Part shown: piece after piece, positions 4,310-64,000 of the stretch
Layout of the letters: the number at the start of each line of letters is the position of its first letter
How positions within the stretch are numbered: the first letter of the stretch is position 1
Source of the DNA: Lentisphaera profundi
GTDB taxonomy: Bacteria > Verrucomicrobiota > Lentisphaeria > Lentisphaerales > Lentisphaeraceae
DNA length: 64,000 nt
Assembly: GCF_028728065.1 (NCBI RefSeq)
Contig: NZ_CP117811.1
Coordinates: 2,108,001-2,172,000 of the forward strand
Direction: 5' to 3'
Position numbers and translations under genes: made by a program
Notes under the pieces: model-generated
What the model saw: only the letters and a program-made list of their open reading frames with translations
Told to the model about the DNA's origin: nothing
Database searches by the model: none

Positions 4310-5045
4310 AAAACTAAACGACTACCCATAATGAGGGGCAAGGCCTCTTAGTCGCCTGGTCAAGCCATGGCAATTCCTATAGTAGTCTTCAATGAAATAA
4401 TGCTTTAAAAAAAGAGTTGTAAATGAGGGGGTCTGGAAGCTAACGAAAGCGCCATCCAGTTTTACCTTAAACATGGCTTCAAAACATTAACACGCAAAAT
4501 GAATTTAGAGCTCTAAAGTCACTAGAGCGCTATCAGAGACCACGTCTCTATATATTAAACTCAGTAAATGCCTCCGGTGGACGGAGAGTCTTCGCACACG
4601 AGGGTGTCCTGCCCAATGCTATTAAGTTTCTTTACATACTCGATGTAGACTCTTATGGCAAATGCGGGCGAGCCGCCCGCGCTCCCAGGTGATGATCTAC
4701 TTGTGAATTTTATAAATATCTCCAAAACTTCAGTTCGAATACCAAATAATTAAAGTTTTTTTGAAGGGGGAGTATGAGGAAAAACGGCAAAGCTTGACTT
4801 AATAAACCCTGCATCACGTCTTTGTTTACAAAAAATCACCCTTCAAGGTCGTTGTTTTCTAGAAACTTAATAGCATTAGTGCCCTGCTCCTCGAACTCCT
4901 CCGCAATGGATGGGGAATTAAGGGTGTTTATACGTGCTGCCACCTTTTTTAGTAAGGCCCCGAGGGCTCCTCGGCCACCGGAGGTATTTATACTGGGGCT
5001 CCGCCCCATACCTCGCTCAAGGTACTGCCGTACGGGCCAATAATT
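4310..5045. repeat. Intergenic debris with GC-rich dispersed repeats
   Basis: A long non-coding stretch after the GH20 gene. It contains a minus-orientation copy of the dispersed repeat (about 4313-4377; core reads GCCATGGCTTGACCAGGCGA on the minus strand), a GNAT gene relic (4436-4516), repeat-module fragments near 4575-4625 and 4875-4930, and at about 4960-5055 short GC-rich hairpins resembling the 33.6-34.4 kb repeat block. The small frames here have poor codon use and I do not call them genes. Confidence 0.6.
4436..4516 (+). pseudogene. GNAT acetyltransferase C-terminal relic
   Basis: Frame 4436-4516 reads EANESAIQFYLKHGFKTLTR followed by KMNLEL and a stop. The N-E-S-A-I-Q-F-Y-x-K-x-G-F pattern is the acetyl-CoA-binding end (motif B) of GNAT enzymes. 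Upstream in the same frame a stop comes after only three codons, so the rest of the gene is gone. It lies in repeat-rich DNA, as does the other GNAT relic at 47083-47309. Recognition is by motif only, from 26 residues. Confidence 0.55.
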
Positions 5046-5177
5046 TTATCCGTCTGTGTGGCAACACCCCTTAAGAATCCCTACACTCGGAACTTCACTC
5101 CAGCGCTTAATCTTCACAATCCCACAGGTCTGATTAGGCACGAATTTAATCTTGTAATCTCTTAATTTCCCACTCAT
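5046..5177 (-). CDS. Possible 43-residue ORF or gene fragment
   Basis: A short minus-strand frame starts MSGKLRDYKIKFVPNQTCGI and ends KGCCHTDG. It contains three cysteines. Codon use looks like that of neighbouring genes, but there is no clear ribosome site and I do not recognise a family. It is probably the remnant of a larger gene, because the adjacent DNA is gene debris and repeats. Confidence 0.2.
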   Translation of the reverse strand: MSGKLRDYKIKFVPNQTCGIVKIKRWSEVPSVGILKGCCHTDG

Positions 5178-5196
5178 TAGGGCTCCCCGCAAGTGG

Positions 5197-6279
5197 CTAG
5201 CTCAGCAAGCACTCTTCTAGAAAGTCGATGAAATAAGGACTGGAATCAAAATAGTTATCCATCAATAATGCCACCGCACCTCCGACAATTAACTCTTCAT
5301 GATGATCCGAAATCAAAACGTCGATTTTGGCATATTTAAAAGCTTTTTGTTTATTAATTTCTGCGCTAAAAACTTTATAAAAATTTTCCTCTAAAGCTTC
5401 TCCTTCAAACTGAACAATAAGTTTTTGAGGGACAAGGTAGTTCACTAACTTGGCAAATTTTTGCGCCAAATCTACGGCAAAAGACTCGAGCTCGCTATAA
5501 TCCTTGGCACTCTGATTTTGTCCTTGTTTTTTCAAGAAATCATAATAGTAATGTTCAAGCTCACCCGCCTGCCCTGAAACTCCCTGATAAAGTCGCTCTC
5601 CAAGGATTAATGCGGAGCCCAAGCCAATTGATTTAATATCTTGATTGGGTTCAACCTCAATAAACAAAGACATCACATCATCGGTATTTTGAGCTTTACC
5701 TAGGACACGTTCACCCCAAAGAGCCGCTCGTGCATTATTCTCAATCATAATGAGCACATCTTTTAAGGTCTCAATTTCTTTGAGTTTTTCCACTAAAGGA
5801 TAGGATTCGAGCCCCCAAGAAGAAGACTCAACCACTGAGCCAGCTTTACTATTTATAATCCCACTTATCGAAACAATTAAGCCTGATAATTTACGAGATT
5901 TAACAAGAGTCTCTAACTGAACCAAACATTCTTCAATCGTCGCACAGGAGGTTTCTTTTTTTTCTTCAATGAGGCTCCCTTTATAATCGTAAAAACTATA
6001 ACAGTTTTCACTTTTATTAAAATAAACAGAGAGAAAGACCCCACCCTTGCCATCCACTTCCCATAGTACACTTGGTCGTCCTTTCGCCGGAGTAATCATA
6101 TCTGAAACTTTGACTAAAGCATGATTTTTGATCACCTCAAATAAATTAAAAATCGAGGTTCTCTTGAGGTGAGTCACCCTCGCTAATTCTACCTGTGTTC
6201 GCGCTCCTCGTAAATGGATTTCATTGAGGATTTTTACAGCATTTGCGACTATTTTCTTATCACTAATTCGTGCGTTCAT
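5197..6279 (-). CDS. ROK-family transcriptional regulator (NagC/XylR type)
   Basis: 360 residues from ATG 6279; a TTG at 6291 is also open but abuts the AGGAG, so ATG is preferred. Residues about 1-65 form a winged helix-turn-helix (GARTQVELARVTHLKRTSIF). The rest is an ROK actin-like fold: LIVSISGIINSKAG, IENNARAALWGE and GLGSALILGERLYQGVSGQAGELEH. The family zinc motif (C-x-C-G-x2-G-C-x-E) after this last segment is absent, so ligand-binding geometry must differ from NagC. ROK repressors sense sugars or sugar phosphates. It stands divergent to the cytosolic GH20 operon with two palindromes (6310-6326 and 6390-6406) between them, the classic place for a local and autoregulating repressor. 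It is the best candidate for the regulon described here; the ligand is unknown. Confidence 0.85.
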   Translation of the reverse strand: MNARISDKKIVANAVKILNEIHLRGARTQVELARVTHLKRTSIFNLFEVIKNHALVKVSDMITPAKGRPSVLWEVDGKGGVFLSVYFNKSENCYSFYDYKGSLIEEKKETSCATIEECLVQLETLVKSRKLSGLIVSISGIINSKAGSVVESSSWGLESYPLVEKLKEIETLKDVLIMIENNARAALWGERVLGKAQNTDDVMSLFIEVEPNQDIKSIGLGSALILGERLYQGVSGQAGELEHYYYDFLKKQGQNQSAKDYSELESFAVDLAQKFAKLVNYLVPQKLIVQFEGEALEENFYKVFSAEINKQKAFKYAKIDVLISDHHEELIVGGAVALLMDNYFDSSPYFIDFLEECLLS

Positions 6280-57146: not shown

Positions 57147-57444
57147 AAATAAGCCCTTTGTTAATTGTATGCTTATGAATACTACGAATGTCCACAAGCA
57201 GATATAACAGCTTTTACTTAGAAGTGATGATTTTTGTATTAAAGGTCCCGTAATTTATTGTCCATACACTGTAGATGAATTTCGTTCTGCAAATTCACCG
57301 CTTCAGACATAAATAATCATCTGAGCTTTAAATGAACCAACGACAGTATTGTTTAAAAAGTCGCACACTCATAATTTATAATTGGAAGCAGGTTCAGGAC
57401 GCTAAAGCATTAGCGATGTTTAAATCATAAATTGGAGGTCCATA

Positions 57445-58131
57445 ATGAAGATTTTAATCAGTAGTATTATAAGTTTATTTATTAGCAGTTGCATTTCACA
57501 AAGTACACCCGGTGAATTGATTGTTACCGAATATGATATAGCCAAACATAAACACCTTTTAATGGATGTGGATTATCATAAAATTACTAAATTAGAAAAT
57601 GAGATTAATGATCGTAGTAATCGTGGCGATTCAGTTCACTATTATTTAGAATCAATAACTATGGATCACCTCAACAAAAAAAAGTTTTTATATAAAAAAA
57701 TAAATGCTGAAATAAGTAGTTATAAACAACTCTCTTTTATGGATATAAATGATTCAATTAATCTTTTAGTCTCGGAATATAAAGAACAAGATGAACTTGA
57801 CTATTCAAAAGCCTTACACATATTCAGGCAAAATATAACTAACTACCATAAAAATGATGACATTATCATTTTTAATATTAGTCGGGACTCATTTTATAAG
57901 AGTAACAATGAAACTAATACTTTTTGTATCATGCAGGCATTTGATGAGATTAATCACAATGTGTTATTAATTGAAATTAATAATGACAAACAATCTAAAT
58001 ACTGGGTACACTACAAAAATCTATTTGATGGAATTATGACCAAAAGAAATTTAAGTTACTCCTCTTCTGGATGGCTAAAACTTAGTAAAGACTCTTTTCA
58101 AAACACTCGCTATTACTCCACTCTGCCATGA
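57445..58131 (+). CDS. Lipoprotein of unknown function
   Basis: 228 residues, lipobox LFISSC (MKILISSIISLFISSCISQS). The rest is rich in Lys, Asn, Ile, Tyr and Ser, reflecting the AT-rich DNA from here to the right edge. I see no domain; DEINHNVLLIEINNDKQSKY is a possible beta-strand pair. GGAGGT gives a strong ribosome site. It lies between a divergent esterase and the STAND-like fusion. It may be restricted to close relatives; function unknown. Confidence 0.75.
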   Translation: MKILISSIISLFISSCISQSTPGELIVTEYDIAKHKHLLMDVDYHKITKLENEINDRSNRGDSVHYYLESITMDHLNKKKFLYKKINAEISSYKQLSFMDINDSINLLVSEYKEQDELDYSKALHIFRQNITNYHKNDDIIIFNISRDSFYKSNNETNTFCIMQAFDEINHNVLLIEINNDKQSKYWVHYKNLFDGIMTKRNLSYSSSGWLKLSKDSFQNTRYYSTLP

Positions 58132-58245
58132 TTTCCATAAGCTATTCCCCGGCTTTGTCCATCGTTGAAGTCATATCAAATAAGTACCTACCAAAAACTG
58201 GCCAATCAAAATTAAATCTATATTTTAAACACTTATACTAATATG

Positions 58246-58286
58246 ACAGCTAAAAACAGCTAAAAACAGCCTAAAAACAACATAAA
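58246..58286. repeat. Short tandem repeat ACAGCTAAAA
   Basis: ACAGCTAAAA at 58246-58255 and 58256-58265, then ACAGCCTAAAA and a decayed ACAACATAAA, in tandem. It lies about 110 bp upstream of the regulator gene at 58394 and could be a binding-site array or a slippage repeat. Confidence 0.6.
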
Positions 58287-58393
58287 GTAAACAAATAAGT
58301 AGGATTCTATCTCCACAGGCTTTATTATAATAAATATTAAATCATTTCTCAAGTGATAGTGTTTCATCTCAAATTATTTAACGCGGGCTATGC

Positions 58394-61300
58394 ATGGATT
58401 TTGACGGTAGAATAAGCCTTAATGGCGAACAAATAAAAAAACACCGATTAAAACAATGCCTAAGTCGAGATATGTTTTCATCCAAAAGCCAACAGATGGG
58501 TTGTTACTTATCTGTTTCAACTTTAAAAAGAGCTGAGGCTGGAAGTAAAATTTATTATCGTACGGCTCAAGACATTGCCTCTATTTTAAAAGTCAGCTTA
58601 GATGAACTGAAAAAAATAAGTACCACACAGCCAGAAACCCAAACTGCAATAACCGTATTATCCAGAGATGAACAAATCCATAGAGCATCCTCTACTCTAG
58701 GCCGAGTAAAATCAGAACACAAAGGTAGTATCATTTTCATCCAAGGTGAACCAGGGATTGGAAAGTCTCACTTCATACATAGGGTCACAGAACAAGCTAA
58801 AGAATTAGGATTTATCAATTTCCGACTTCCTATTTATGATGGAGTGACAAGCAAAAGGCAAATCCTTCAAGATTTAATTCGAAAATTCATCGATCACTCC
58901 AACACTAACACCTTAAAATGTAGTAAATGTCATAACAAAATAATTAATTATGATGAGAACTATAATTATACCCAGTGCTTAGAATGTTTTACACTCAGAA
59001 CAAGACTGAACGAAAAGGAAAAAACAACTTTATTCATACTGTTTGGCAAAACTGCTCACAAAGACAAGCCAATCACTTACAAAGAAACTCAAATAAACGA
59101 ATTAAATTTGCTTTTCTCATTAATCAAAAATCTTGATGAACCTATAAATATTATACTTGAAGACATTCATTGGGCTTCGACAGAAATCATAAGTATCATA
59201 CAGAATCTAACTCATGAAGCACGGTATTATCCGCTAATACTCATCCTATCCAGTCGATTAATCAACAGCCCATTATATCAAATCTGGAATAATACCGTCC
59301 TTAACACTCCTTTGGAATTATTTAATCTTTGCCCTCTGAATAAACACGAATTAAGTGAAATGATCGATGACAATAAAAAAATCTCAAGAAAAACCCAAGA
59401 AACATATATAGACCTTTCGAACGGCAACCCTCTGTTTTTTAGATTTTTATTAGAAATGCAAGCCAAACAAAGCGACTGTAAATTACCAAATACCTTAAAC
59501 TCCTTAGTTAAGCAACAACTATCTCTACTAAGCCATCCACAAATATACTTTTTACGCTACACATCAGCACTAGGTCACGAGTTTGATCTCACTGAAGTAG
59601 AGCAGATTCCCCAAATACAAAAACTCAATCTAACTAGACTAATAGAATACAATTTTTTTGTAAAAAAAGGCAACAACATCTATGAGTTCCACCATGATTT
59701 GATACGACAAAGCATCTATCAAAACATGCCCGAAGAAGTCAAAATCAAGATTCACGATTCGGCTGCCTTGTTCTATCAAAATAAAGATCAAACAAAGCTA
59801 GCATTACATTTGCGCAAAGCTAAAAAAATATACCAGGCGAAAGAGGCTATAAGAAAACTGGCTCTCTGCCTATACGAAAAGCACGATTACTCTGAGGCTC
59901 TGAATCAAGTGGACATTGCCTTAGCACTTCCTGGTGAAAAAAATCTATACTCATTATATTATATGAAGGGCGTTCTTCTTAAAATTCTTGACCTGCCAGC
60001 TAAAGCTACTCAATACCTTAAAAAGGCATTACGTCAATCAAACACTAATCAAAAGAAACTACAAATACACCTAGAACTTACCGAGATCTATGCGGTAAAT
60101 CAACGTTTTAAACTTTCGCATGATTTTTTATCAAAAGCAAAAAGCTTTTTATCTGGAGCAGAAAGTGATGAGGATAGAAGCAATATAGAAAAATATACTA
60201 CTTACCTAAAAAAATGTACCTACTCACTAAATAGCAATCTACAAAAAATCAACTATCAACAGTCTCAAGCCTTTAAAACCAGCATTCAAAATTTTAATGA
60301 TTTACCTAGGCTTAGCACAAAAAGTGAACTTAAAAAAGATCATAAAGTCGCTTTACTACACTCTACCAGTGGTTTTTTAAAGGAACACGAAGAAGGGGTG
60401 CTCAAAGCCTCTATCATGGCCTTTGATGAAATCAATAAAAACGGAGGACTATTAGATCATCAGATCACCTATGAGATATTTGATGGCCAATCAAATGAGC
60501 ATATTTTTCGGAAACAAGCAAAAAACATAATCTACAACCATCACCTAACTAGTATTTTTGGTTGCTCTACTTCTCCAACTCGCAAACAGGTAAAGACAAT
60601 AGTGGAAGACAGCAATAATCTGCTTATCTACCCCTTTCACTATGAAGGCTTAGAGTCATCAGAAAATATTATTTATACTGGCCCGACCTCCAGCCTCCAA
60701 GCTTCACCTATAATAGATTGGTTATTCGACATAATTAAACCCCATTCCTTCTATTTTATAGGTTCAGATTATATATATCCTGTAGTTACTAATGAAATAT
60801 TAAAAGACTCAATAAGTATCTATAAGGGTGATTTAATTGGAGAAGATTATCTGCCTATTGGTGCTACAGATTTCCAAAATATCATTAATAAACTTCAAGA
60901 CACAAAGCCTGACGTTATTATTTTGACTTTAGCTTCAGTTGAAAGCAACAAAGCTTTTTTAAAGCAATATCATGAGTCAACATACGCTCAAAAAAATAAC
61001 ACCATAATAGTATCCCTTGTGTTATCAGATAGTGACATCATCCACATACCCATTGACCATTGTCGAGGTATTTACGGAATCTTTAGTTACTTTCAAAATA
61101 ACAATATCTATAGCAATGATGATTTCATACAAAGCTTCAAATTAAAATATGGCAAAAATGAAAGAGTTGGCGGTTATATGGAATCCGCTTACGTGGGCGT
61201 TAAACTTTGGGCTAAAGCTATACAAAAATGCCAATCTTTTGAACCCAATAAAATAACACAAGCAATTAAAGGCTTATCTTATTATGGGCCTGGAGGGATA

Positions 61301-61501
61301 GCATACATTGATGAGGAAAATCAACATATCTGGAGACACACACACATTGCTCAGGTTGGTAGTGATGGAGAATTCCATATTAAGTGGTCTTCAGAACAAC
61401 CGACACCCCCTACCCCCTACCCCTTATCTAGACCTGAAAGTGAATGGAATACATTTCTACAAAAATCTAAAGCACGTTGGGATGGAGGCTGGGGAATATA
61501 A
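58394..61501 (+). CDS. HTH-ATPase(STAND-like)-TPR-UrtA-like ligand domain fusion, putative cytoplasmic sensor
   Basis: 1,035 residues, no signal peptide or membrane segment. Order of parts: residues about 8-75 Xre-like helix-turn-helix (SVSTLKRAEAGSKIYYRTAQ; DIASILKVSLDELKK); 85-420 AAA/STAND-type ATPase with Walker A GEPGIGKSHF (118-127) and Walker B IILEDIHW (253-260); inside it a four-Cys zinc-ribbon-like insert C176, C179, C195, C198; 430-620 TPR-like helices (KAREAI-type pairs, e.g. YMKGVLLKILDLPAKATQYL); 645-1015 a periplasmic-binding domain close to UrtA/AmiC: KVALLHSTSGFLKEHEEGVL, IFGCSTSPTRKQVK, YPFHYEGLESSENIIYTGP, GSDYIYPVVTNEIL, GATDFQNIINKLQDTKPDVI and NQHIWRHTHIAQVG. UrtA is normally an exported urea-binding protein; here it is inside the cell and joined to DNA binding and ATPase parts. 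I infer a one-component sensor that binds a urea/amide-like ligand. Convergent with the amine oxidase, stops abutting. Confidence 0.85.
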   Translation: MDFDGRISLNGEQIKKHRLKQCLSRDMFSSKSQQMGCYLSVSTLKRAEAGSKIYYRTAQDIASILKVSLDELKKISTTQPETQTAITVLSRDEQIHRASSTLGRVKSEHKGSIIFIQGEPGIGKSHFIHRVTEQAKELGFINFRLPIYDGVTSKRQILQDLIRKFIDHSNTNTLKCSKCHNKIINYDENYNYTQCLECFTLRTRLNEKEKTTLFILFGKTAHKDKPITYKETQINELNLLFSLIKNLDEPINIILEDIHWASTEIISIIQNLTHEARYYPLILILSSRLINSPLYQIWNNTVLNTPLELFNLCPLNKHELSEMIDDNKKISRKTQETYIDLSNGNPLFFRFLLEMQAKQSDCKLPNTLNSLVKQQLSLLSHPQIYFLRYTSALGHEFDLTEVEQIPQIQKLNLTRLIEYNFFVKKGNNIYEFHHDLIRQSIYQNMPEEVKIKIHDSAALFYQNKDQTKLALHLRKAKKIYQAKEAIRKLALCLYEKHDYSEALNQVDIALALPGEKNLYSLYYMKGVLLKILDLPAKATQYLKKALRQSNTNQKKLQIHLELTEIYAVNQRFKLSHDFLSKAKSFLSGAESDEDRSNIEKYTTYLKKCTYSLNSNLQKINYQQSQAFKTSIQNFNDLPRLSTKSELKKDHKVALLHSTSGFLKEHEEGVLKASIMAFDEINKNGGLLDHQITYEIFDGQSNEHIFRKQAKNIIYNHHLTSIFGCSTSPTRKQVKTIVEDSNNLLIYPFHYEGLESSENIIYTGPTSSLQASPIIDWLFDIIKPHSFYFIGSDYIYPVVTNEILKDSISIYKGDLIGEDYLPIGATDFQNIINKLQDTKPDVIILTLASVESNKAFLKQYHESTYAQKNNTIIVSLVLSDSDIIHIPIDHCRGIYGIFSYFQNNNIYSNDDFIQSFKLKYGKNERVGGYMESAYVGVKLWAKAIQKCQSFEPNKITQAIKGLSYYGPGGIAYIDEENQHIWRHTHIAQVGSDGEFHIKWSSEQPTPPTPYPLSRPESEWNTFLQKSKARWDGGWGI

Positions 61502-63301
61502 TTACGTTAAAATAAACGCATTATTTTTTTCTAGCTGAGTACTTTTACGACTCAAATCATAGCAATACATATCTGGATCTTGGATAAAAGAATTATACGG
61601 AGGCAGTTCACCTCCTAGGCGTTTAACCACCGCACTTGCTGCATTAATCCCTGTATGAAGGGCACCTTCAATCCAACCTCCTGACCATGAATTACTGTCT
61701 CCTGCTATATATACACCTTTATCAAGCTTCTTATTCAAGACAGACATAAACTGAAAGTATGCGGCGTGAATATCTGGCTCTTGCCCCGGATAATTCAGCT
61801 TAAAAGCTCCATAATAATCTTGCTCATTTTGCCAATCAATACTTAACACCTCATTATTAACAGGCTCTAAATAACCTTCCCATTCAGGGCAAACATCATA
61901 AAGTATTTCTCGGCATATCTCAAAGCGCTTGTCAACGGGTAAGGCTTGTAATTTATTTGAGTCATCTTCCCATGTGTAACTAATCACCACAACGCCTTCA
62001 TCCGTTTCAGGGTAATCCATCAAGTAAGCCGCTCGGGGCAATTCATCGGTCATTAAAGTCAAGGGAAAATTATTTTTTAATGAGCCATCTTTATTTAACC
62101 AAAATTTTGTACGAGTTCTAATAAACATTTTTGATGAGCTGGTAATATGCAAATTCCTTATCGCAGCTTTAACATCATCGGACATAATCGCAGAATTTGT
62201 ATTTTTCATCGGCATACTTAAACCCATATAAGACATTGCCCTTGTTGTCGTTGCTACAATAACTGCGTCGTAGAGACAATGTTCATCATTATCTAAAACA
62301 ATAATCGGCTTATTTGAGCCCTCATCATAAAGTATATTTTTTACTCGTGTATTAAATTTCACCGCAGAACGATCTTCTAAAGAAGTTTGTTTTTGGCCGT
62401 TAATCTCTACAGCATTGGTGTAAAATGAATTAGGTAACGATTCTACTCCCGATGGGAACATCTGCTGCTCCTCTTCCCATTGCATAAGAATGATCCTTGC
62501 TAATTCTAACATATTTACAGGATACAAAGAGCCAAAACCACCTGAACCTACTCCCAATGCACCAAATGCTTTAAAATCCTCTTTAGTCCAATGCTGCATT
62601 TTATCAGAAACTGCTTTAAAAAAACTACAATCTTTATACTTATCAATAAACTCGTGCTGCCAAATACGAGTCAGTTCTTTTAAATTTTTATCATTAGGCA
62701 ATTGCTGCCATTTTGAAAAAGGCTTATATAAAAGACTTTTTAAATAATTCACCCACTCTTCGAAATCTTTGGCGATTTTCGCAAATGGACCTGGAGCTTG
62801 TGAACCAGGTTCCCAATCATATGATTTATTATCATAAAAAAATTTGGTTCTCACTTTACCCGGATCTGGAAAGCTCAAACCCGCCTTTAAATTAAATTCA
62901 TTGGCATACTTCCAAAAAGTTTTTTGTGATAGTGGAATTCTCATAGCTCCTAACTCCGCAAAAACATTTGATAAGGATCCATCTTCATTCGTAAATCGTT
63001 GTGACCAACAGCGACCTCCTATTCTGCTCCCCGCTTCTATAACCTCCACATTTACACCACATTTACTTAGTTCATACGCAGCACACATGCCACCCACACC
63101 CGCTCCTATAACTGCGACTTTCTTACCCTTCAAATTAGGTATATGCCCCAGATTATTATCTTTTCCAACAACCCTCGTAAAATCAAATAAATTATCAATA
63201 TATGGCCAGGCAACAAAAGTCTCAGACTTCACAGGCTCCGGAAATAAATCTTCAATTGTTGGTACTAATTGACCATCTTCAAAAATATTTTCAGCTGACA
63301 T
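61502..63301 (-). CDS. Flavin-containing amine oxidase family protein
   Basis: 599 residues, no signal peptide. N-terminal FAD motif GKKVAVIGAGVGGMCAAYEL and VNVEVIEAGSRIGGRCWSQR, the two-dinucleotide fold typical of monoamine oxidases and L-amino acid oxidases. The substrate-binding part includes ELGAMRIPLSQKTFWKYANE (a start close to tryptophan monooxygenase/L-amino-acid oxidase types), and the C-terminal FAD part is DKGVYIAGDSNSWSGGWIEG with ALHTGINAA. It oxidises an amine or amino acid with release of hydrogen peroxide. AAGGAG upstream. Its stop abuts the sensor gene; a long hairpin lies upstream of its start. The substrate might be the ligand of the sensor, which is speculative. Confidence 0.9.
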   Translation of the reverse strand: MSAENIFEDGQLVPTIEDLFPEPVKSETFVAWPYIDNLFDFTRVVGKDNNLGHIPNLKGKKVAVIGAGVGGMCAAYELSKCGVNVEVIEAGSRIGGRCWSQRFTNEDGSLSNVFAELGAMRIPLSQKTFWKYANEFNLKAGLSFPDPGKVRTKFFYDNKSYDWEPGSQAPGPFAKIAKDFEEWVNYLKSLLYKPFSKWQQLPNDKNLKELTRIWQHEFIDKYKDCSFFKAVSDKMQHWTKEDFKAFGALGVGSGGFGSLYPVNMLELARIILMQWEEEQQMFPSGVESLPNSFYTNAVEINGQKQTSLEDRSAVKFNTRVKNILYDEGSNKPIIVLDNDEHCLYDAVIVATTTRAMSYMGLSMPMKNTNSAIMSDDVKAAIRNLHITSSSKMFIRTRTKFWLNKDGSLKNNFPLTLMTDELPRAAYLMDYPETDEGVVVISYTWEDDSNKLQALPVDKRFEICREILYDVCPEWEGYLEPVNNEVLSIDWQNEQDYYGAFKLNYPGQEPDIHAAYFQFMSVLNKKLDKGVYIAGDSNSWSGGWIEGALHTGINAASAVVKRLGGELPPYNSFIQDPDMYCYDLSRKSTQLEKNNAFILT

Positions 63302-63560
63302 ACTCTTCTCTCCTTAATTATTGATAACAACACTTACAACACGAAATTTACGAACTAGTAAATATTTTTGATCTGATTTGCAAGGCAAATCAAATCAAAA
63401 ATATTTAACATTCCAAATATGAACCATCAACAAATAGAACAGCTCATTTACGGGTCACTTTAAAAGTGAACTCTAAGTAAGCCATTAAGTCGATAGTTTA
63501 AGTTAACTATCAAAAATATATTTAAATCTGAAGATTTAAATAAATAGGAATTCATAAATT
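63302..63560. promoter_or_regulatory. Divergent intergenic region with three hairpins
   Basis: The longest hairpin is 63360-63406: two 22-bp arms with one mismatch and a 3-nt loop AAG. It is followed by GATAGTT-tttaag-type-AACTATC (63492-63511) and TATTTAAATC-tgaa-GATTTAAATA (63519-63542). Promoters for the amine oxidase and for the gene at 63561 must lie here. The hairpins may be operators. Confidence 0.6.
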
Positions 63561-64000
63561 ATGGATATAATTAGAAAGAAGCATCACAGTATAAATACTT
63601 CACCTTGGACTTCCTTTTCAACTATTACTGAGCAGAAATCCTCCTTATTTAAACAAGAGATCCAACAAGTAACTGGATCTAAATACATACCTCTATCGAG
63701 CTGTGAAAATAAAAAAAACACTGCTCTCAAAAAATTCAGATGTTACCTATATGTAAATAAAAAAATAAAATTTTTCACTATTGAACTATTAGAAAAGTTT
63801 TTAGGGAAGATTCATATAATAAAAATCTCATCTTTGAAGTCTTGGAGAAATTTAGCGATATCTAATGACCTGTGTGATACTTCTTGTAAAATATTTCAAG
63901 CATTTATAAAAAATACCCATGGAGTTAAATATTTCCCTTTAGGCCATGAGTTAAATCTAGTAGAAAATGAGTCAAGATTTAGTTTTTCCTGTATCGCAAT
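63561..64000 (+). CDS. Hypothetical protein, 5' end only
   Basis: My own reading finds an open frame from ATG 63561 to the window end, 146 full codons, with an in-frame stop two codons before the start. It begins MDIIRKKHHSINTSPWTSFS, is rich in Lys, Ile, Ser and Asn, and has KFRCYLYVNKKIKFFTIELL in the middle. AGGAA lies 10 bp upstream. No signal or domain is visible. Its codon use and base composition match the AT-rich block from 57.4 kb onward. Function unknown. Confidence 0.55.
   Translation, partial: MDIIRKKHHSINTSPWTSFSTITEQKSSLFKQEIQQVTGSKYIPLSSCENKKNTALKKFRCYLYVNKKIKFFTIELLEKFLGKIHIIKISSLKSWRNLAISNDLCDTSCKIFQAFIKNTHGVKYFPLGHELNLVENESRFSFSCIA

Follow-up and report, generated by a model that had tools for sequence, protein, structure and literature searches.

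We identified in the genome of Lentisphaera profundi a single 1,035-residue protein (P0001) that, by its domain order, appears to be a STAND one-component regulator in an apparently undescribed arrangement (Xre HTH-NOD-TPR-Venus-flytrap). We consider it likely (probability of about 0.6) that this protein is a cytosolic, ligand-gated transcription activator that senses its ligand with a Venus-flytrap domain and acts through 11-bp direct repeats. The gene lies in the stretch of 64,000 nucleotides that was analyzed (hereafter the window, to which coordinates without a locus prefix refer), and its parts are arranged as follows.

58394..61501, + strand: regulator coding sequence (P0001), ATG start, 1,035 aa; full-length orthologues and a paralogue are known
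58394..58618, + strand: Xre-type HTH, aa 1-75, placed by an HTH_3 match and the distribution of the HTH family
58658..59788, + strand: STAND-type NTPase core, aa 89-465, placed by AAA_16 and invariant motif positions
59789..60313, + strand: TPR-like arm and linker, aa 466-640, matched weakly by TPR_1, TPR_2 and TPR_8 (E 0.006 at best across members)
60338..61429, + strand: UrtA-family Venus-flytrap sensor, aa 649-1012, placed by Peripla_BP_5, PDB relatives and the pocket table
61430..61498, + strand: C-terminal extension with a W..FL...K.RW motif, placed by alignment ends and sequence comparison

Pfam searches assigned aa 89-284 of P0001 to AAA_16 (E 2e-10), which is present in all four family members, and aa 651-1012 to Peripla_BP_5 (E 1.5e-97, 327 bits against a curated cut-off of 27). 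The HTH_3 match at aa 15-72 scored 19.4 bits, under the curated cut-off of 23, and HTH_3 was matched by all five HTH relatives scanned alone, with a best E-value of 4.5e-4. The TPR matches, at approximately aa 480-560, are weak and recur among members. Alignment of four homologues revealed invariant key positions in the Walker A motif (GEPGIGKS, aa 118-125), in the E256-D257 pair of Walker B (aa 251-257), in a GNPLF motif (aa 344-348) and in an FxHxL motif (aa 432-436). Set against the criteria for STAND ATPases, AAA_16 and these conserved motifs correspond to the NOD core, within which helical and winged-helix folds and their boundaries are predicted, and the sensor slot that follows the NOD and the weakly matched TPR-like arm, in most STAND proteins made up of repeats such as TPR, LRR or WD40, is occupied by a Venus-flytrap SBP. 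A structure model of P0001 computed from the single sequence was unusable (mean pLDDT of 34), and it is for this reason that we infer the domain boundaries in the middle of the protein. Within the NTPase domain, an insert with CxxC-type cysteines was discounted, as the homologues do not conserve it. No signal peptide or membrane helix was indicated in P0001, where no 19-residue stretch exceeds a Kyte-Doolittle value of 1.3, and the protein is apparently cytosolic because it lacks an export signal. The ORF call, Pfam matches and hydropathy thus bear out the initial annotation, which had described one 1,035-residue frame combining an Xre-like HTH, Walker A and B motifs, TPR-like helices and a full UrtA/AmiC-type domain with no signal peptide, and which had named a C-terminal part unlike Peripla_BP_5 or UrtA as grounds for its own rejection; the Peripla_BP_5 match shows this not to be the case.

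Full-length orthologues of P0001, with 69% and 62% identity, are found in the two other species of the genus (G001 and G002), and a full-length paralogue (38% identity) is encoded in the same genome. Since all of them present the same domain order, the fusion is real, and a sequencing-error join of two genes can be ruled out. Comparison with the two orthologues places pN far below pS in every domain of P0001, linker included, with the HTH and the sensor most constrained. A decayed copy of the entire regulator, carrying several stop codons, was located in another genus of the family (L025:10486-13111, genome G005), which suggests that the fusion is older than the genus. The same fusion was found nowhere else in about 1,260 genomes, in 72,556 plasmids or in a peptide-pattern scan of 84,980 GTDB species, a scan that picks up close relatives only and that alone covers the Planctomycetota. 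The genome search sets included 289 genomes of the phylum, 398 of Pseudomonadota and 398 of Bacillota, plus viral contigs; a viral origin of the regulator was rejected, with no relative in IMG/VR. Long frames in other phyla (G534, G674, G691, G463 and G153) were considered as leads and set aside: the G534 frame is a UrtA-histidine kinase fusion, that of G463 is read-through ahead of a normal SBP, the SBPs re-read at G674 and G691 sit in ordinary frames of 450-490 aa, and the 946-aa frame of G153, with a TGA inside, was judged to be a read-through. The initial annotation knew of no regulator described with its parts in this order, and none emerged from the literature or from the genomes searched.

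The genes flanking the regulator provide its likely targets.

57445..58131, + strand: PCS-like putative lipoprotein, likely target; Pfam PF05023 at E 4.6e-5, just under cut-off, and synteny
61502..63301, - strand: FAD amino-acid oxidase/2-monooxygenase-like gene, likely target in this species only; PDB 4iv9, tryptophan 2-monooxygenase, at E 8e-89
63561..64000, + strand, running off the window: start of a 178-aa gene of unassigned family, likely target; no Pfam match

In all three species, the PCS-like lipoprotein, the regulator and the 178-aa protein are encoded in this order on one strand. A PCS-like gene adjoins the regulator at the four intact loci examined (4/4), and two lie next to the paralogue. 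Members of this lipoprotein family, at 57445-58131 of the window and at L026:1883-2539 and 4652-5476, are tied to the regulator family, and in a homologue the PF05023 match exceeds the cut-off (E 9.6e-6). No PDB relative of the family was recognizable, and the Pfam match to phytochelatin synthase is confined to the C-terminal part of these proteins. The unmatched half is the one that holds the catalytic cysteine of phytochelatin synthase, and for that reason enzymatic activity of the PCS-like proteins is doubtful. The oxidase gene, convergent with the regulator, resembles both tryptophan 2-monooxygenase and L-amino-acid oxidase/monooxygenase. An association of the regulator with this neighboring amine oxidase is not conserved: G001 has a broken copy of the oxidase gene and G002 has none, and it is therefore not a constant partner of the regulator.

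Alignment of the promoters of the three species revealed a common block upstream of the PCS-like and 178-aa genes, in which the candidate element, TGAVCY-N5-TGAVCY, consists of two directly repeated half-sites at a step of 11 bp. The copies in the window are the following.

57319..57341, + strand: candidate operator TGAGCT-TTAAA-TGAACC, ~103 bp upstream of the PCS-like gene; conserved in three species, perfect genome-wide match
63464..63486, + strand: candidate operator facing the 178-aa gene, 70-74 bp from the ATG in all three species
63438..63460, - strand: oxidase-facing candidate operator; G001 has a corresponding copy

A matrix built from six sites (the PCS-like and 178-aa promoters of the three species) scored further copies, which face the oxidase, lie beyond the 178-aa gene (followed, in the genome of the window, by a GH18-like gene) or precede a PCS-like gene at the locus of the paralogue. 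A search of the three genomes (16.8 Mb) for CTGAVCYNTANNTGAVCCA returned four perfect matches, every one of them at a regulator-family locus. With one mismatch allowed, 8, 5 and 4 matches (17) were obtained, as opposed to 1, 3 and 1 (5) for a reversed control pattern, and the off-locus matches of this kind fall mostly inside coding sequence. When half-sites are loosely specified the repeat is not rare within the window (8 found, 6.1 expected), and support for the operator therefore comes from its position and conservation. The copy facing the oxidase was not found in G002, the species without the oxidase, and there is none upstream of the regulator itself. Accordingly, one of the two regions put forward initially as DNA targets, 63302-63560, holds the conserved element, and the other, 58132-58393, holds no copy. 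A shared palindromic operator was also considered and discarded, as inverted repeats in the promoters are not common to different genes. The GH18-like gene (L027:12209-13171; weak Pfam match, E 0.017) is located just past the end of the window, on the downstream side of the 178-aa gene; a weak copy of the repeat precedes it, and in G001 the gene appears fragmented. An AraC-family gene (L027:13587-14447) is located 1.5 kb beyond the 178-aa gene.

The position of the repeats and their exclusivity suggest that P0001 binds them and activates the flanking genes. The sites precede start codons by roughly 55-140 bp, and the PCS site is closely followed by a sigma-70-like promoter, a type of match no more frequent than in shuffled sequences. 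The same protein and targets could operate with the opposite sign, with the unliganded HTH repressing the flanking genes until the ligand or the ATP switch releases them. Xre-type heads are often repressors, and the site-to--10 geometry is too imprecise to decide; repression is nonetheless unlikely, since the PCS-like site sits upstream of the likely -35/-10 elements and not over them, as is typical of activators, and since MalT and AfsR, among the known STAND transcription factors, activate. We also think it improbable that some other factor, of OmpR, PhoB or AraC type for instance, binds the repeats, leaving the STAND protein as a signaling or conflict protein with unrelated targets. Direct repeats of 11 bp are typical of SARP winged-helix regulators, and the AraC-family gene mentioned above is close at hand, but no AraC-like gene was recognized by eye among the ORFs read around the G001, G002 and paralogue loci, where the repeat is nevertheless retained, and the perfect matches are all next to members of this regulator family, the paralogue among them. 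Counting against activation by P0001 through direct repeats, Xre proteins often bind palindromes instead.

Apart from the two regulators, the HTH family of P0001 occurs in this genome only in an HNOBA-like protein encoded directly after an H-NOX gene, which makes three proteins in all. The pair, found in all three species, consists of the H-NOX (HNOB) gene followed by that of a 242-247 aa HNOBA-like protein ending in the regulator's HTH family (L003:1495-2764; L014:1480-2816; L015:450-1716), and it is possibly a heme/NO-responsive DNA-binding pair. The occurrence of the same HTH in the regulators and in the HNOBA-like protein suggests that one lineage-specific DNA-binding head serves two sensing systems. 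Short fragments from upstream of the H-NOX genes showed no copy of the repeat. We give roughly even odds to the broader proposition that a STAND factor gated by a new, non-urea Venus-flytrap domain controls a genus-specific regulon through 11-bp repeats and shares with H-NOX/HNOBA an HTH that acts as an interchangeable output for different cytosolic sensors.

The closest solved structures to the sensor domain are PDB 8tg1 (E 3e-80), UrtA 7s6f (E 8e-62) and AmiC 1pea (E 3e-40), with the UrtA structures 7s6e and 8hic also among its nearest solved relatives. Against the model for UrtA proper (TIGR03407), the sensor scored 313 bits, below the curated cut-off of 492.75; this score, the altered pocket and the missing export signal rule out its identity as a transport UrtA, and no urt genes were recognized among the ORFs flanking the regulator. 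On the inferred tree, which contains several long branches, the regulator sensors constitute a single clade (support 100/100) that is placed beside signaling SBPs (87/91) and apart from UrtA and AmiC. Grouping with AmiC was 10 log-likelihood units worse and was not rejected (AU p 0.09). The tree thus lends moderate support to a sensor whose closer kin are exported UrtA-like proteins with sensor-kinase genes as neighbors, transport UrtA and AmiC being more distant, and favors these UrtA-family signaling SBPs over the AmiC-like sensor initially proposed, even if the AU test leaves the latter grouping standing. Unlike L072, the regulator has no adjoining ANTAR-like or amidase gene that could be recognized in the ORFs read or in domain scans of the neighbors.

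The closest standalone relatives of the sensor (L078-L087, 34-39% identity) have signal or membrane N-termini and are encoded beside dCache sensor kinases, PAS proteins or chemoreceptors. The C-terminal W motif of the regulator is common to the signaling SBPs (L078-L087, L048), whereas transport UrtA lacks it in the alignment. These SBPs form an apparently exported clade, most members of which retain all nine urea-contact residues, and they may be urea receptors for signaling or chemotaxis. The G534 fusion (L088:2368-5106) is a soluble UrtA-PAS-HisKA-HATPase-receiver protein with no signal peptide and an intact urea-type pocket, possibly a cytosolic urea-sensing hybrid kinase; given this soluble fusion, cytosolic capture of a UrtA-family domain has probably occurred at least once more. 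In G004, a standalone UrtA-like protein with an N-terminal membrane segment (L024:7317-8738) is encoded between a CxxCH protein and a gene resembling, by eye, a ligand-gated-channel-type membrane protein.

The urea site of Prochlorococcus UrtA is formed by nine residues; Ser122, Gln144, Tyr190 and Asn246 form hydrogen bonds with urea and Trp120 is needed as well, as binding was lost in W120A and was weakened or lost when Gln144 or Asn246 was altered (PMC10392092). The corresponding P0001 residues (S725, S727, Y746, H749, E751, Y793, Y795, A847 and V876 for UrtA W, S, Y, Q, E, Y, F, N and S) depart from UrtA at four of the nine urea-contact positions (Trp120->Ser, Gln144->His, Asn246->Ala and Ser274->Val), identically in P0001 and both orthologues. 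Almost every UrtA-family sequence that was gathered has the pocket string WSYQEY[FY]NS, which becomes SSYHEYYAV in P0001 and both orthologues and SSYNEDQTN in the paralogue. The orthologues therefore appear to have one altered pocket in common, and the specificity of the paralogue is probably another. A domain search of the genome found no Peripla_BP_5 protein beyond P0001 and its paralogue, so that the genome is without a transport UrtA. The ligand of P0001 is probably not urea, and a larger amide is possible. The single-protein amide, urea or amine sensor of the initial annotation hence survives as a sensor, switch and HTH on one, apparently cytosolic, polypeptide, but probably not as a receptor for urea, with four of nine contacts changed and no transport UrtA in the genome. 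That P0001 directly senses urea, short amides or amines in the manner of AmiC, perhaps as products of the neighboring oxidase, is quite improbable: its UrtA/AmiC family, the retained S727, Y746, E751 and Y793, a Tyr at position 192 as in AmiC, and an oxidase whose best solved relative, tryptophan 2-monooxygenase, belongs to a type of enzyme that produces primary amides all speak for it, yet W120S, Q144H, N246A and S274V fall at urea contacts, the pocket is identical in G002, with no oxidase, and in G001, where the oxidase is broken, and the genome has no transport UrtA.

The layout of NOD, arm, sensor and terminal effector domains in P0001 is that described for STAND proteins (Danot 2015, PMC4381067), which rest as ADP-bound monomers until an inducer on the sensor frees the arm and opens the NOD, giving rise to ATP-driven multimers (PMC4381067, PMC6468293). 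N-terminal DNA-binding heads on a NOD-TPR body are known from PH0952 (PMC6468293) and AfsR (PMC10936776); SARPs, AfsR among them, recognize direct repeats spaced by 11 or 22 bp (PMC10936776). By analogy, a ligand-gated activator of this design would follow a MalT/AfsR-like logic, in which a bound ligand leads to DNA binding and activation. In the resting state, the NTPase core of P0001 would be ADP-bound, with the TPR-like arm and the C-terminal sensor keeping it shut. Closure of the Venus-flytrap domain on a small ligand would lead arm and sensor to release the core, and exchange of ADP for ATP would then allow P0001 to multimerize, with its Xre-type heads sitting side by side on the TGAVCY-N5-TGAVCY repeats. 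The targets of P0001 would be the genes for the PCS-like lipoprotein and the 178-aa protein, joined in this species by the amino-acid oxidase gene, and they would most likely be activated. STAND sensors are generally described as built from repeat units (PMC4381067), and a Venus-flytrap pocket in the sensor position would offer a clean case of ligand closure opening a STAND switch. P0001 would also exemplify a nutrient-uptake protein family turned, by fusion, into a cytosolic one-component regulator, and because the candidate operator supplies a defined DNA target, the model is directly testable before its biology is known.

Among known systems, E. coli MalT and GutR likewise combine NOD core, arm, inducer sensor and DNA-binding domain on one polypeptide, and are driven to activation by inducer and ATP (PMC4381067, PMC10936776), but the MalT sensor is a TPR superhelix, whereas that of P0001 is a Venus-flytrap SBP accompanied by an N-terminal Xre-type HTH. 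AfsR (SARP-NOD-TPR) and PH0952 (ArsR-like HTH-NOD-arm-TPR) share with P0001 the order of N-terminal head, NOD and TPR; their heads are SARP and ArsR-like, respectively, instead of Xre-type, and P0001 continues beyond its TPR-like arm with a UrtA-family domain. In AmiC-AmiR and NasS-NasT, gene control likewise relies on a cytosolic sensor related to the binding proteins of ABC importers, but that sensor is a separate protein that holds an ANTAR RNA-binding antiterminator, whereas the one in P0001 forms a single polypeptide with an ATPase switch and an HTH. UrtA of the UrtABCDE importer (8HIC, 7S6F) belongs to the same domain family, whose nearest members are 34-39% identical to the P0001 sensor, but is exported and linked to transport, and not all of its urea contacts are present in P0001. 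The UrtA-like SBPs (L078-L087, L048) resemble P0001 in their signaling use and C-terminal W-motif extension, and L088 in being a soluble fusion; the standalone proteins, however, have N-terminal signal or membrane segments, mostly a urea-type pocket and a kinase or chemoreceptor output, while the output of P0001 is a STAND-HTH module.
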